Positions 1 through 3,529 of a stretch of 21,091 nucleotides of DNA are shown in pieces. The stretch spans positions 1 to 21,091 of IMG/VR virus record IMGVR_UViG_3300046460_000406. One strand, given 5' to 3'. The DNA is from a virus. The stretch's first letter is position 1. Every line of letters starts with the position of its first letter. The notes below the pieces were generated by a model. That model was not told the origin of the DNA. It did no database searches and was given only the letters and a program-made list of their open reading frames with translations. A program made the translations under genes and the position numbers.

Positions 1-942
1 ATGAATATTTGCCCACCACATTTTTCGCGCCACTTAAACACTAACGAAGTGCCCAACATGATAAACGACACACAAATAACTAATCACAAGAAATTATCTC
101 ACTCGTTGTATTTTTGGCTTGCTATGTTAATTCCAGCGCTTTTGGCAACCTTGGTAGCCACCACTATTTTTCTTTCGTCGCCAAGTATAAGCTTTTGCTT
201 TTCTTCTGAGTGCTGGGGTTACTTTTTTCAGCTTTACAAAATGCCTATCACCATAGCTGGAACGTCTATTCCTGCTGCCGCCATTATTGCCACACTTCAT
301 CGCTCCCACGAGACTGCAATTCAAATATCAATGTCGTTCCGACAGTATGAAGAAGCTGTAAACAACAATAGATTCGGTAATTTCCTTAAGCATCGTGAAG
401 GCTTTATAAAACACATGGAAGGGGTGGTTATTGGACTAGAACACAAAGGTGTAAAATGCAATGTCGATTCGGGGGCGCTCTATCATGCTGCGTTTCCAAA
501 AAACGGCTTTGAGAGTTTTGAATGGGCATCAGATATAAATCAAGCAATCTGGGTAGACTCACAGGAATCTATTTCCAAAATGGCCGATCTTTTCAATATA
601 AAAAACGGACCACCTACGGAAGAAGCTGTTCTCGCCGCATTTCAAATCCTGACCAAGCTACAGTATATCTTTAACTTCAGACATTCAGAGACGGTACGCA
701 TCCAACTTTCAGTGAAAGAAGGAACTTATTACATGTACAACTTCCCTAAAGTTAATGAGGAAATTGATCATGATAGGCGGGCAGCAATTGCGTTAATTTC
801 TTTTTTAGAGTTTATTCGAAAAACTGCTTCATTTTGCTTTGTCGATCTGGACATTTCGAAATTTGAAACATCTTTGAACCTGCCAAATATTATTGAATTT
901 ATTTCAGAAACCGAAATCGTGATTGAAGATTTCGAGTATTAA
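1..942 (+). CDS. Two-transmembrane membrane protein, possible retron Ec48-type effector
   Basis: This 313-residue protein has two clear hydrophobic segments, at about residues 36-58 and 79-98. A short Cys-containing loop (SFCFSSECW) separates them, and the rest is a soluble, probably cytoplasmic domain. The stretch from FFQLYKMPITIAG through HRSHETAIQI to FLKHREGFIKH recalls, from memory, the membrane effectors of Ec48-type retrons, which damage the inner membrane when the retron is triggered. No search was possible, so the family is an inference. A second possible start is the Met at residue 20 (position 58), which still precedes both membrane segments. The coding sequence is visibly more AT-rich than the phage late genes, which suggests horizontal acquisition. 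The partner reverse transcriptase and msr-msd RNA would have to lie left of the window, since none is inside it. The gene could instead be another abortive-infection or superinfection-exclusion membrane protein. Confidence 0.6.
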   Translation: MNICPPHFSRHLNTNEVPNMINDTQITNHKKLSHSLYFWLAMLIPALLATLVATTIFLSSPSISFCFSSECWGYFFQLYKMPITIAGTSIPAAAIIATLHRSHETAIQISMSFRQYEEAVNNNRFGNFLKHREGFIKHMEGVVIGLEHKGVKCNVDSGALYHAAFPKNGFESFEWASDINQAIWVDSQESISKMADLFNIKNGPPTEEAVLAAFQILTKLQYIFNFRHSETVRIQLSVKEGTYYMYNFPKVNEEIDHDRRAAIALISFLEFIRKTASFCFVDLDISKFETSLNLPNIIEFISETEIVIEDFEY

Positions 943-1154: not shown

Positions 1155-1174
1155 TACTGTATATATAAACAGCA
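1155..1174. promoter_or_regulatory. LexA (SOS) box
   Basis: Positions 1157-1172 read CTGTATATATAAACAG, a perfect CTGT-N8-ACAG core with an AT-alternating centre and flanking TA on the left. This is the LexA operator pattern of gammaproteobacteria including Pseudomonas. It ends 18 bases before the ATG at 1191, where LexA would block RNA polymerase or the first part of the transcript. The TATATA inside the box may also be the -10 element. I see no convincing -35. Confidence 0.85.
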
Positions 1175-1190: not shown

Positions 1191-1559
1191 ATGCACCCGT
1201 ACGAAATCGAAGACACCACCGACTGGCTCGGCAACCCGACACCGCTTGAAACCTGCCGACATCAGCTGCGGATGTATGAGAACGAATTTGAGGAGCTGAC
1301 CCTGCAACTGCGCCAGGGCCGGGAGAAGATCTTCAAGCTCGTTGAAATGCACGCAGAGATGGCAAGCGAACGGGATTCGCTACGGGCTCAGCTCACAAGC
1401 GCCAAGACGGAAGCAGCCGAAGCAAACCGACGGGCCACCGATATCGAGACAAAATCCAATTGGGAGCTGATGGCGAAAGGCAAGCAGATCAGCTTCCTGT
1501 ATTCGCGAATTCAAGAACTCATGGATAAACAGCCGCACGCTGATCGACTTGTTAAATAA
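1191..1559 (+). CDS. Small SOS-controlled coiled-coil protein, function unknown
   Basis: This is a 122-residue protein that I do not recognise. After an N-terminal segment (MHPYEIEDTTDWLGNPTP), residues of about 30-85 form a charged helix rich in Glu, Arg, Leu and Ala that is probably a coiled coil. There are no membrane segments and no catalytic motif. The start at 1191 is chosen because AAGG lies 7 bases upstream of the ATG and because the LexA box sits just before it. A longer in-frame form from 942 is unlikely. LexA control predicts repression in the lysogen and expression on DNA damage, when the prophage would also be induced. Known phage genes under LexA include antirepressors such as Tum of phage 186, but no similarity is claimed here. 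Confidence 0.75.
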   Translation: MHPYEIEDTTDWLGNPTPLETCRHQLRMYENEFEELTLQLRQGREKIFKLVEMHAEMASERDSLRAQLTSAKTEAAEANRRATDIETKSNWELMAKGKQISFLYSRIQELMDKQPHADRLVK

Positions 1560-1618
1560 GCTCAGTCTATTATTAAGGCGCAATTAATGTTCGGCGGCCT
1601 ACCGCAATACAGGCGTAA

Positions 1619-1654
1619 GACTGGACGATCAGTCGGATAGGGATATATAAATCT
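1619..1654 (+). promoter_or_regulatory. Possible promoter with inverted repeat before the HEPN gene
   Basis: A candidate -35 (TGGACG, 4 of 6 matches) is followed after 18 bases by TATAAA. The inverted repeat GACTG-N6-CAGTC at 1619-1634 overlaps the -35 and could be an operator. It is the best promoter-like signal in the 124-base gap between the small SOS gene and the HEPN-like gene. Otherwise the gene would depend on read-through from the LexA-controlled promoter. Confidence 0.3.
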
Positions 1655-1683
1655 CGTATACCCCTAAGGATTAAGAGGTTTCA

Positions 1684-2706
1684 ATGGAACGTTTTGCTGG
1701 GTTTTATACATCCGATCCATTTTGGGCATGCGAAAAAATAGATTTTCCATATAACACTTGGATTCATCCGCATAAATTTTACGACATCATGACTAAGGCG
1801 GCGTATGAAAAATCCACAAACGAAGCCACTTTAAGAGTTGATAGAGACGGCCTAATCTTATTAAGAATTTCGTCAATTGCAGAAGAAGAGCGGCAATACC
1901 ACGCCGAAAACAGAGTCAACATAAATGAATCGGTAGCACGCGCAAAAACTTACACTAATTACTTAAACTGCTTCTGCTTATTCCTTGACTCAGCAGCAAT
2001 CACAGTAGACCAGCGAGCATTCTTTAACTATCGCGAAGTAACTACACACGAAATGCTTAGAATGTCATTCAAGGATGGAAAATTCGCCTCAGCTGGACTC
2101 CCAAATACAGGCATTACTGCAAACCTCTTTAGCGGTCGACACCTGAGCGACTATGAGATTCAAGACTCGCTCGACCTCGACAAGAGAATATCTGATCGCT
2201 TTGTAGTTTCTTTCGACGCCATTGATTACGCCGCAAATCAGTTATTTAGTGTTTTTTCAAAAGAAGGATCAATCAATCACTTTACATCCATCGCCAAAAG
2301 CATTTCTGAGTACAAGATCGGAAACTACGACACCTCTATAATACTGGCTTGGTTTGTCATCGAATCCATAGTTAATAGCTTGTGGAAATCCCATCTAGAA
2401 TCGCTCGACACTGAAATCTCGGCTGGCAGATCTCGCATAAATCGCGTCCGGTATGATGACCTAACCGGCAGCTCGTTTGAAGCAGGCAAAACAATTCAAA
2501 TGCTTGAATTGTTCGGAGTGATAACTTTCGACACCTACGAAACGCTTACAAAAGTCCGCAAGAACAGAAACAATATCGCTCACGTTACTAAAATTGTATT
2601 AACCGCAGAAAAAGCTAGTGAAGCTATCAGCGCCGCCCGAGAGATGATTTCATTAAAGTGGGGTATCGATTTCACACCCAACCTTAATTACAACGTACTT
2701 GGTTAA
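1684..2706 (+). CDS. HEPN-like C-terminal domain protein, candidate defence ribonuclease
   Basis: This 340-residue soluble protein is of unknown family. The C-terminal third looks like an all-helical HEPN-type domain. A first helix (NYDTSIILAWFVIESIVNSL, residues 214-233) is followed by VRKNRNNIAH, in which R295-x4-H300 fits the Rx4-6H ribonuclease motif, and then by a final amphipathic helix. This arrangement is typical of Apea-like and abortive-infection HEPN proteins, many of which cleave RNA. Residues 1-200 form an unrecognised, possibly sensing, domain. GAGG lies 6 bases before the ATG. The gene is AT-rich compared with the phage late genes and lies at the end of the late operon, where cargo genes often sit. 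Its stop codon overlaps that of Rz on the other strand. The HEPN assignment rests on the motif and helix pattern alone. Confidence 0.65.
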   Translation: MERFAGFYTSDPFWACEKIDFPYNTWIHPHKFYDIMTKAAYEKSTNEATLRVDRDGLILLRISSIAEEERQYHAENRVNINESVARAKTYTNYLNCFCLFLDSAAITVDQRAFFNYREVTTHEMLRMSFKDGKFASAGLPNTGITANLFSGRHLSDYEIQDSLDLDKRISDRFVVSFDAIDYAANQLFSVFSKEGSINHFTSIAKSISEYKIGNYDTSIILAWFVIESIVNSLWKSHLESLDTEISAGRSRINRVRYDDLTGSSFEAGKTIQMLELFGVITFDTYETLTKVRKNRNNIAHVTKIVLTAEKASEAISAAREMISLKWGIDFTPNLNYNVLG

Positions 2707-3221
2707 TAATTCGACAATGCCTTAACATATGCTTGGCATGCGGTCAGCGCGATCAGTCCTTGGTCGCCGGCGTCGGTGATGGCGACAATTCGTTGAGCAT
2801 GCGCTGGGTCAAGTCGGGCGCGCGCTCCTCCATGAACCACGCCGCCGGCGCCGGTACCGGCAGGCACTGCACAACCATCGGCTGAACCCGTGGCGTCGAG
2901 TAAGACTGACAGCCGCAAATCAGCAGTGGCAAGGCGATCGCGTAGGCGTGCCTGGTTCGTTTGAGCATCGCTGAGTTCCTTATAGTGGGATTGTTCGCTG
3001 ACCGACAGGCGCTGCTCAAGCGCCAAGCGCTTGTCCTGATCGGTGCGGATCTGAGTGGCGGCAGCATTGCTGAGGATGCTCAGGTCGGACTGGTGCAGTA
3101 GCGCTTGAGCGGCGAGCTGGCCACCGTAGCGCCAGTCCTGCACCTTCCATACACCACCGGCTGTGGCCAGCACCAATGCCAGCAGTCCGGCCAGCATCAG
3201 TTTCATCGACGTTGGCGTCAT
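2703..3221 (-). CDS. Rz: Rz-like inner-membrane spanin
   Basis: This 172-residue protein has one N-terminal membrane anchor (about residues 7-24, LMLAGLLALVLATAGG). A periplasmic helical, coiled-coil-prone region follows (about 40-110), with a Cys-containing C-terminal part. This is the Rz spanin architecture. Together with the outer-membrane lipoprotein Rz1 it spans the periplasm and disrupts the outer membrane at the end of lysis. ATG at 3221 is preferred over an upstream TTG because GGGAGGA lies 6 bases ahead of it. It follows the DUF6527-like gene by 2 bases and contains the whole Rz1 frame. Its stop overlaps the stop of the converging HEPN-like gene by 4 bases. Confidence 0.85.
   Translation of the reverse strand: MTPTSMKLMLAGLLALVLATAGGVWKVQDWRYGGQLAAQALLHQSDLSILSNAAATQIRTDQDKRLALEQRLSVSEQSHYKELSDAQTNQARLRDRLATADLRLSVLLDATGSADGCAVPAGTGAGGVVHGGARARLDPAHAQRIVAITDAGDQGLIALTACQAYVKALSNY
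2753..2968 (-). CDS. Rz1: Rz1-like outer-membrane spanin lipoprotein, nested in Rz
   Basis: This 71-residue protein is encoded in another frame entirely inside Rz. A lipoprotein signal peptide ends at LLICGC, with C20 as the likely lipidated residue. The mature part is short and rich in Pro (PRVQPMVVQCLPVPAPAAW), as in lambda Rz1. The start at 2968 has AAGGA about 8 bases upstream. An earlier in-frame Met would put about 33 polar residues ahead of the signal peptide and is rejected. The nested arrangement and the lipobox together make the identification strong. Confidence 0.85.
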   Translation of the reverse strand: MLKRTRHAYAIALPLLICGCQSYSTPRVQPMVVQCLPVPAPAAWFMEERAPDLTQRMLNELSPSPTPATKD

Positions 3222-3223
3222 GG

Positions 3224-3529
3224 TTAATCCTCCCAAAGGGGAAGGTCTACGGTCTGGCCAGCAAGAGCGTGGGTGCAGTCGCCCAGGAACTGGATACGGC
3301 CATCGGTGACGAACGAGTGACAGACACGATCACCATCAGACCAGGGGTACTGCACCAGCACCGAAGGGGTGAAGGTCGGCTTATCGACGCTCCCATTCCA
3401 GCCCCAGCGCGGACTTGGTCCGGGACCGTGCATGACTCGATGCATCATCGTGCAGCCCGGGCACTCGAACCAAAGGCTGCCTTCCTCGGCAGTAGCCAAA
3501 ACAGGAGACAATCTGCTGAAAGCGGTCAT
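3224..3529 (-). CDS. DUF6527-like small Cys-rich protein
   Basis: This 101-residue protein has two CxxC/CH-type clusters: FECPGC (C23, C26), VCHSFV (C70, H71) and GDCTH (C85, H87). These suggest a zinc-binding fold. The blocks PRWGWNG, KPTFTPSVL and HSFVTDGRIQFLGDCTH are those I associate with the DUF6527 family, whose members are common in phage late regions. Older records sometimes mislabelled similar proteins as ammonia monooxygenase, which nothing here supports. The start overlaps the lysin stop as ATGA, so it is translationally coupled to the lysis genes. Its function is unknown, and it has no membrane segment, so it is not a holin. Confidence 0.7.
   Translation of the reverse strand: MTAFSRLSPVLATAEEGSLWFECPGCTMMHRVMHGPGPSPRWGWNGSVDKPTFTPSVLVQYPWSDGDRVCHSFVTDGRIQFLGDCTHALAGQTVDLPLWED

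Follow-up and report, generated by a model that had tools for sequence, protein, structure and literature searches.

Gene content of the prophage locus

The window, the whole 21,091-nt stretch of DNA that was analyzed, is a piece of a Pseudomonas prophage whose nearest phage record is VW-6S (78% over 2 kb). Its late operon lies on the minus strand and terminates with an endolysin-like hydrolase followed by an Rz-like spanin. The focal gene runs on the opposite strand, convergent with this operon, and its stop codon (positions 2704 to 2706) overlaps the spanin stop codon (2705 to 2703, minus strand). A sequence-only reading had placed the gene at the end of the late operon; it lies outside the operon, tail-to-tail with it. 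The same reading had called the gene AT-rich cargo, and its GC content is indeed about 0.41 to 0.42, versus about 0.58 to 0.62 for most phage genes. The ORF list contained no minus-strand ORF of at least 60 aa within the focal gene, and the window had no tRNA and no substantial Rfam match. The features of the locus are collected in Table 1.

Table 1. Features in and around the focal gene
Feature	Position	Strand	Remarks
Focal gene, 340 aa	1684-2706	+	ATG to TAA, intact ORF
N-terminal region, family-specific	about residues 1-175 of the focal protein		Basis: relatives L002, L003, L004
Putative C-terminal HEPN domain	about residues 196-325 of the focal protein		Basis: hhalign to DUF4145
Stretch used for HEPN tests, residues 177-329	2212..2670	+	Conserved W223, E227 in predicted second helix
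Codons of R295-N-N-I-A-H300, conserved RNxxxH motif	2566..2583	+	
Upstream gap, 124 bp	1560..1683	+	Plausible ribosome-binding site AAGAGG
Small conserved coiled-coil prophage gene, left border of slot	1191..1559	+	21 viral relatives; convergent with Rz in 43 loci
LexA/SOS-box-like CTGTATATATAAACAG	1157..1172	+	18 nt before coiled-coil gene
Rz-like spanin, final late-operon gene, right border of slot	2703..3236	-	phrog_2466, 8e-53
DUF6527 protein between spanin and endolysin-like hydrolase	3227-3529	-	

An SOS-box-like sequence precedes the small coiled-coil gene upstream of the focal gene. The pattern CTG-N10-CAG was found 16 to 22 nt ahead of the start in 41/41 distinct upstream regions of relatives of the coiled-coil gene, and CTGT-N8-ACAG matched twice in the window versus 0.27 matches expected. 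Promoter and terminator scans gave results at chance level. Because the gap before the focal gene is only 124 bp and contains no plus-strand terminator-like site, read-through from the SOS-boxed gene is possible. Judged from sequence, SOS-induced transcription of the coiled-coil gene may thus extend into the focal gene, and the convergent late transcript may silence the focal gene during the lytic cycle of the prophage itself.

A conserved RNxxxH motif in the C-terminal region

The sequence-only reading had identified R295-N-N-I-A-H300 in the focal ORF as the mark of a HEPN ribonuclease, and the motif is located exactly as it stated. The hallmark of HEPN domains is Rx4-6H with N, D, or H following the arginine. 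A generic Rx4-6H was present in 76% of shuffled versions of the focal protein, so the motif by itself means little. The narrower pattern R[NDH]x3-5H occurred in 18% of shuffles, and RNxxxH within the C-terminal 140 residues occurred in 1.1%. RNxxxH is more than chance here because R, N, and H are kept across relatives: all four full-length family members (focal protein included), at 23 to 30% identity, have them. Three remote profile matches also keep the three residues, and these matches are partly circular because the search profile itself contained the motif. When the C-terminal regions of these seven sequences were aligned, the columns of R, N, and H were the only ones without variation. 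Conservation of the motif among homologues, on which the HEPN assignment depended, was thus observed. The four full-length members also retain W223, E227, and R292. Helix 2 of HEPN domains carries an acidic residue, often in the form Ex3[KR], upstream of the motif. In the focal protein, position +4 from E227 is neither K nor R, and one remote match lacks the glutamate.

Profile evidence for a HEPN domain

No Pfam model scored above its cut-off for the focal protein. DUF4145 (PF13643) reached 13.8 bits versus a curated cut-off of 23.1, and the weak matches consisted of DUF4145 and RiboL-PSP-HEPN, both at the motif region, and one unrelated model. Weak HEPN-clan matches were also obtained for relatives L003 and L004, and L003 matched HEPN models only. 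The Pfam matches of Tha-1, a proven HEPN RNase, were equally weak. Apea, LA2681, and Abi_2, families proposed earlier for comparison, gave no match with the focal protein up to an E value of 10, and 0 families of PADLOC-DB 2.0.0 matched it at the same limit.

With a profile of the family C-terminal region as the query and 14 usable DUF4145 domains as the target set, hhalign gave 95.7% probability and a score of 55.7 over 108 columns. One hundred column-shuffled queries peaked at 0.8% (score, 16.4), the reversed query gave 0.13%, and two unrelated phage families used as targets gave at most 0.25%. When the nine motif columns were masked, the match to DUF4145 still reached 67% with a score of 34. 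In a profile search of the PDB, the top match was Dandelion-HEPN (E, 0.0035), followed by CRISPR-associated proteins aligned at RNSVAH, HepT, and Csm6; the matches were mostly to HEPN proteins, and a few chains were unrelated. The profiles agree with the HEPN-like assignment of the earlier reading, and the prediction of a C-terminal HEPN domain whose catalytic-type motif is conserved is well supported.

HEPN domains fold into four helices, the third of which ends in the motif. AlphaFold, for which only two sequences were usable as input, returned models with pLDDT values of 36 (full length) and 50 (domain). The domain model was entirely helical and put the motif close to a helix end; that the motif lies between two helices is seen in low-confidence models only. 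Foldseek and VIA-align searches with these poor models retrieved PI3K coiled coils and other proteins (Z at most 5.3) and no HEPN structure. The structure searches were uninformative and said nothing against HEPN.

A rare and patchily distributed family

Searches with tblastn identified full-length relatives on a Paraburkholderia caribensis replicon (29.5% identity) and a P. fungorum plasmid (23% identity), and a genome scan identified a third in Marinifilum (30% identity). The family profile gave the three distant matches noted above in 395 Bacteroidota genomes, and no additional full-length match came from three partly overlapping draws, each of about 395 Bacteroidota genomes. Scans of viral contigs yielded no second copy of the protein or the family, and neither was found in the phage collection or the E. 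coli genomes. The family is rare and patchy, comprising a Pseudomonas prophage, two Paraburkholderia replicons, and one Bacteroidota genome.

BREX genes lie next to relative L004, and the neighborhood of L003 includes a TIR-domain gene and an Abi_2-like gene. The Marinifilum relative has ordinary chromosomal neighbors, none of them defense related, which we counted against a role in defense. No neighbor gene is consistently common to the three full-length relatives; a single-gene system is favored because of this, as the sequence-only reading had supposed.

The spanin-side slot is an accessory-gene site

To place the focal gene in context, we retrieved 80 viral loci that encode a related spanin and 21 in which the coiled-coil ORF at 1191 to 1559 has a relative. 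Both genes were present, and convergent, in 43 loci. The gap between them was 15 to 139 bp in 22/43 loci, 210 to 261 bp in 3/43, and more than 700 bp in 18/43; one contig accounts for two of the 43 loci, and some gaps appear larger than they are because the alignments are partial. The slot is thus empty in about half of these related prophages; in the window, the focal gene occupies a gap of about 1.1 kb. Elsewhere the slot held unknown proteins of high AT content, genes for a DNA methyltransferase and an SRAP-like protein, an O-acyltransferase-like gene, and a protease-like gene, names that rest in part on visual inspection.

PADLOC models also matched genes in the broader stretch downstream of Rz: a CBASS cyclase accompanied by a 2TM effector (L027:9010-10539), Septu PtuB (L033:10572-11228), a PtuA/AriA-like ATPase (L023:2636-4549), a retron-type reverse transcriptase (L020:9211-9723), and a 2TM effector (L072). 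The earlier description of the gene as prophage cargo held up in this survey: the content of the slot varies, and CBASS, Septu, and retron-type reverse transcriptase genes lie in or beside it. Overall, the slot receives accessory genes, among which defense functions are common but not exclusive. Since it houses nondefense genes too, position alone is only moderate evidence for the function of an occupant.

Several other genes of this region were recorded. Another probable HEPN protein lies by the spanin in L086 (7641-8375), with the motif RNKVSH, a weak Apea match, and no PADLOC match. A slot protein of 282 aa in L071 (807-1652), very AT-rich (37%), has a possible caspase-like H/C arrangement, seen by eye, and no convincing Pfam match. 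In the window itself, positions 1 to 942 (plus strand), at the contig end, encode a protein like the two-transmembrane effector of retron Ec48 and PADLOC 2TM_IV that scores below the NCBIfam cut-off. No reverse transcriptase to go with it was found in the window; a 33% relative of it sits downstream of Rz in L072/L073.

Comparison with known systems

Tha-1 and Tha-2 are prophage-encoded HEPN defense proteins of Staphylococcus aureus phages, and Tha is activated by a minor tail protein (PMC11087260). Like the focal protein, Tha is the product of a single prophage gene, is about 300 aa long, has no recognizable N-terminal domain, carries a C-terminal HEPN domain (RNSIMH in Tha versus RNNIAH in the focal protein), and matches DUF4145 equally weakly. 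In contrast, the two have no sequence similarity outside the motif region, and their genetic settings differ: Tha is encoded within the cI operon together with the antisense inhibitor ith, whereas the focal gene is tail-to-tail with lysis genes. BLASTP of the focal protein against Tha-1 gave an E value of 1.3 over the motif only, and hhalign gave 1 to 3%, with 0.06% for the N-terminal regions. By sequence, then, the focal protein does not belong to the Tha family.

DUF4145 (HEPN clan CL0291) is the best-supported relative of the C-terminal domain, although the N-terminal region of the focal protein lies outside the DUF4145 model and its score falls under the Pfam cut-off. The HEPN domain of Dandelion (PDB 9wx2 and 9wxf), the best PDB profile match, spans most of the HEPN region, but the match is weak and the motif position reads RHLSAH in the alignment shown. 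For the slot, the closest parallel is the small variable locus between two conserved genes of P2-like prophages, which often contains antiphage genes (PMC9122126). Both sites hold variable cargo between conserved phage genes; the slot described here belongs to another phage type, occupies a different position, between Rz and an SOS-boxed coiled-coil gene, and has mixed content.

Proposed function and alternative explanations

The focal protein, accessory cargo of a Pseudomonas prophage, is probably a stand-alone HEPN-superfamily abortive-infection ribonuclease that acts as Tha does. The observations behind this reading are the intact ORF, the conserved RNxxxH motif, the HEPN profile matches, the defense systems inside or close to the cargo slot, and the defense genes close to some relatives. 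From these we infer that the protein would have nuclease activity, dimerize, sense a signal through its N-terminal region, and act in phage defense. By analogy with Tha, the most likely arrangement would be an N-terminal sensing region joined to a C-terminal HEPN RNase. The N-terminal region probably detects a product of an incoming phage and would keep the enzyme off until then. Upon activation, two subunits would pair via their C-terminal HEPN domains, and R295, N296, and H300, perhaps with E227, would form the RNA-cutting site of the dimer. Cleavage of cellular and phage RNA would then lead to growth arrest or death and stop the infection. As a whole, the sequence-only reading was partly supported: its HEPN domain, prophage cargo, and single-gene components held up, and its placement of the gene at the end of the late operon was wrong in detail.

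Other explanations account for parts of the data. That the protein is not a HEPN protein and its motif is coincidental is extremely unlikely: the generic motif is frequent by chance and the AlphaFold models matched no HEPN structure, but the profile-profile match covers the whole domain and persists with the motif masked, and the PDB profile matches are mostly HEPN. Very little likelihood attaches to a noncleaving HEPN fold that acts by binding RNA or protein or to a superinfection-exclusion factor that works independently of the motif. Some HEPN domains do not catalyze, but the families presumed to be noncatalytic have lost the motif (PMC3710099), and catalytic-type R, N, and H are present in every relative found.

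We also consider it improbable that the protein is the HEPN toxin of a toxin-antitoxin pair, neutralized by a neighboring gene and serving prophage maintenance and not defense. HEPN/MNT is named as a common toxin-antitoxin type (PMC7641770), and the small coiled-coil gene lies directly upstream of the focal gene. However, no MNT nucleotidyltransferase is adjacent (the neighbors encode the coiled-coil protein, Rz, and the 2TM protein), and the three full-length relatives lack a common neighbor. Pairing with the coiled-coil gene is itself unlikely, as that gene often occurs without the focal gene, adjoining Rz in its absence in about 22 prophages. A lysogenic-conversion or accessory RNase with no antiphage role, acting in RNA processing, the stress response, or the prophage lytic cycle, is unlikely as well. 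The clearly nondefense genes of the slot (O-acyltransferase-like gene and methyltransferases) and the SOS box on the neighboring gene would fit such an enzyme, whereas the CBASS, Septu, and retron-type genes in or beside the slot and the relatives near BREX and TIR genes argue against it. The abortive-infection reading can be extended, with rather little expectation that the extension is correct, to a new single-gene HEPN defense family whose expression is tied to the prophage cycle by its position behind the conserved LexA-boxed gene and against the end of the late operon, so that the slot would act as an on/off switch and prevent self-attack on induction.

Implications for prophage defense

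HEPN domains were present in 6 of 21 newly found defense systems in one functional selection (PMC9519451), and one part of a second screen had them in 4 of 31 (PMC13092281). With HEPN domains so frequent in new systems, the kind of protein described here is already known, and it is the family that is apparently undescribed: as had been suggested, no library searched names it. The finding adds a rare, patchily spread HEPN family that has no name in these libraries. Further, the spanin-side cargo slot of Pseudomonas prophages, with its known and unknown defense genes, is a source from which more may be mined, and the SOS box at its border makes the regulation of its cargo open to testing.
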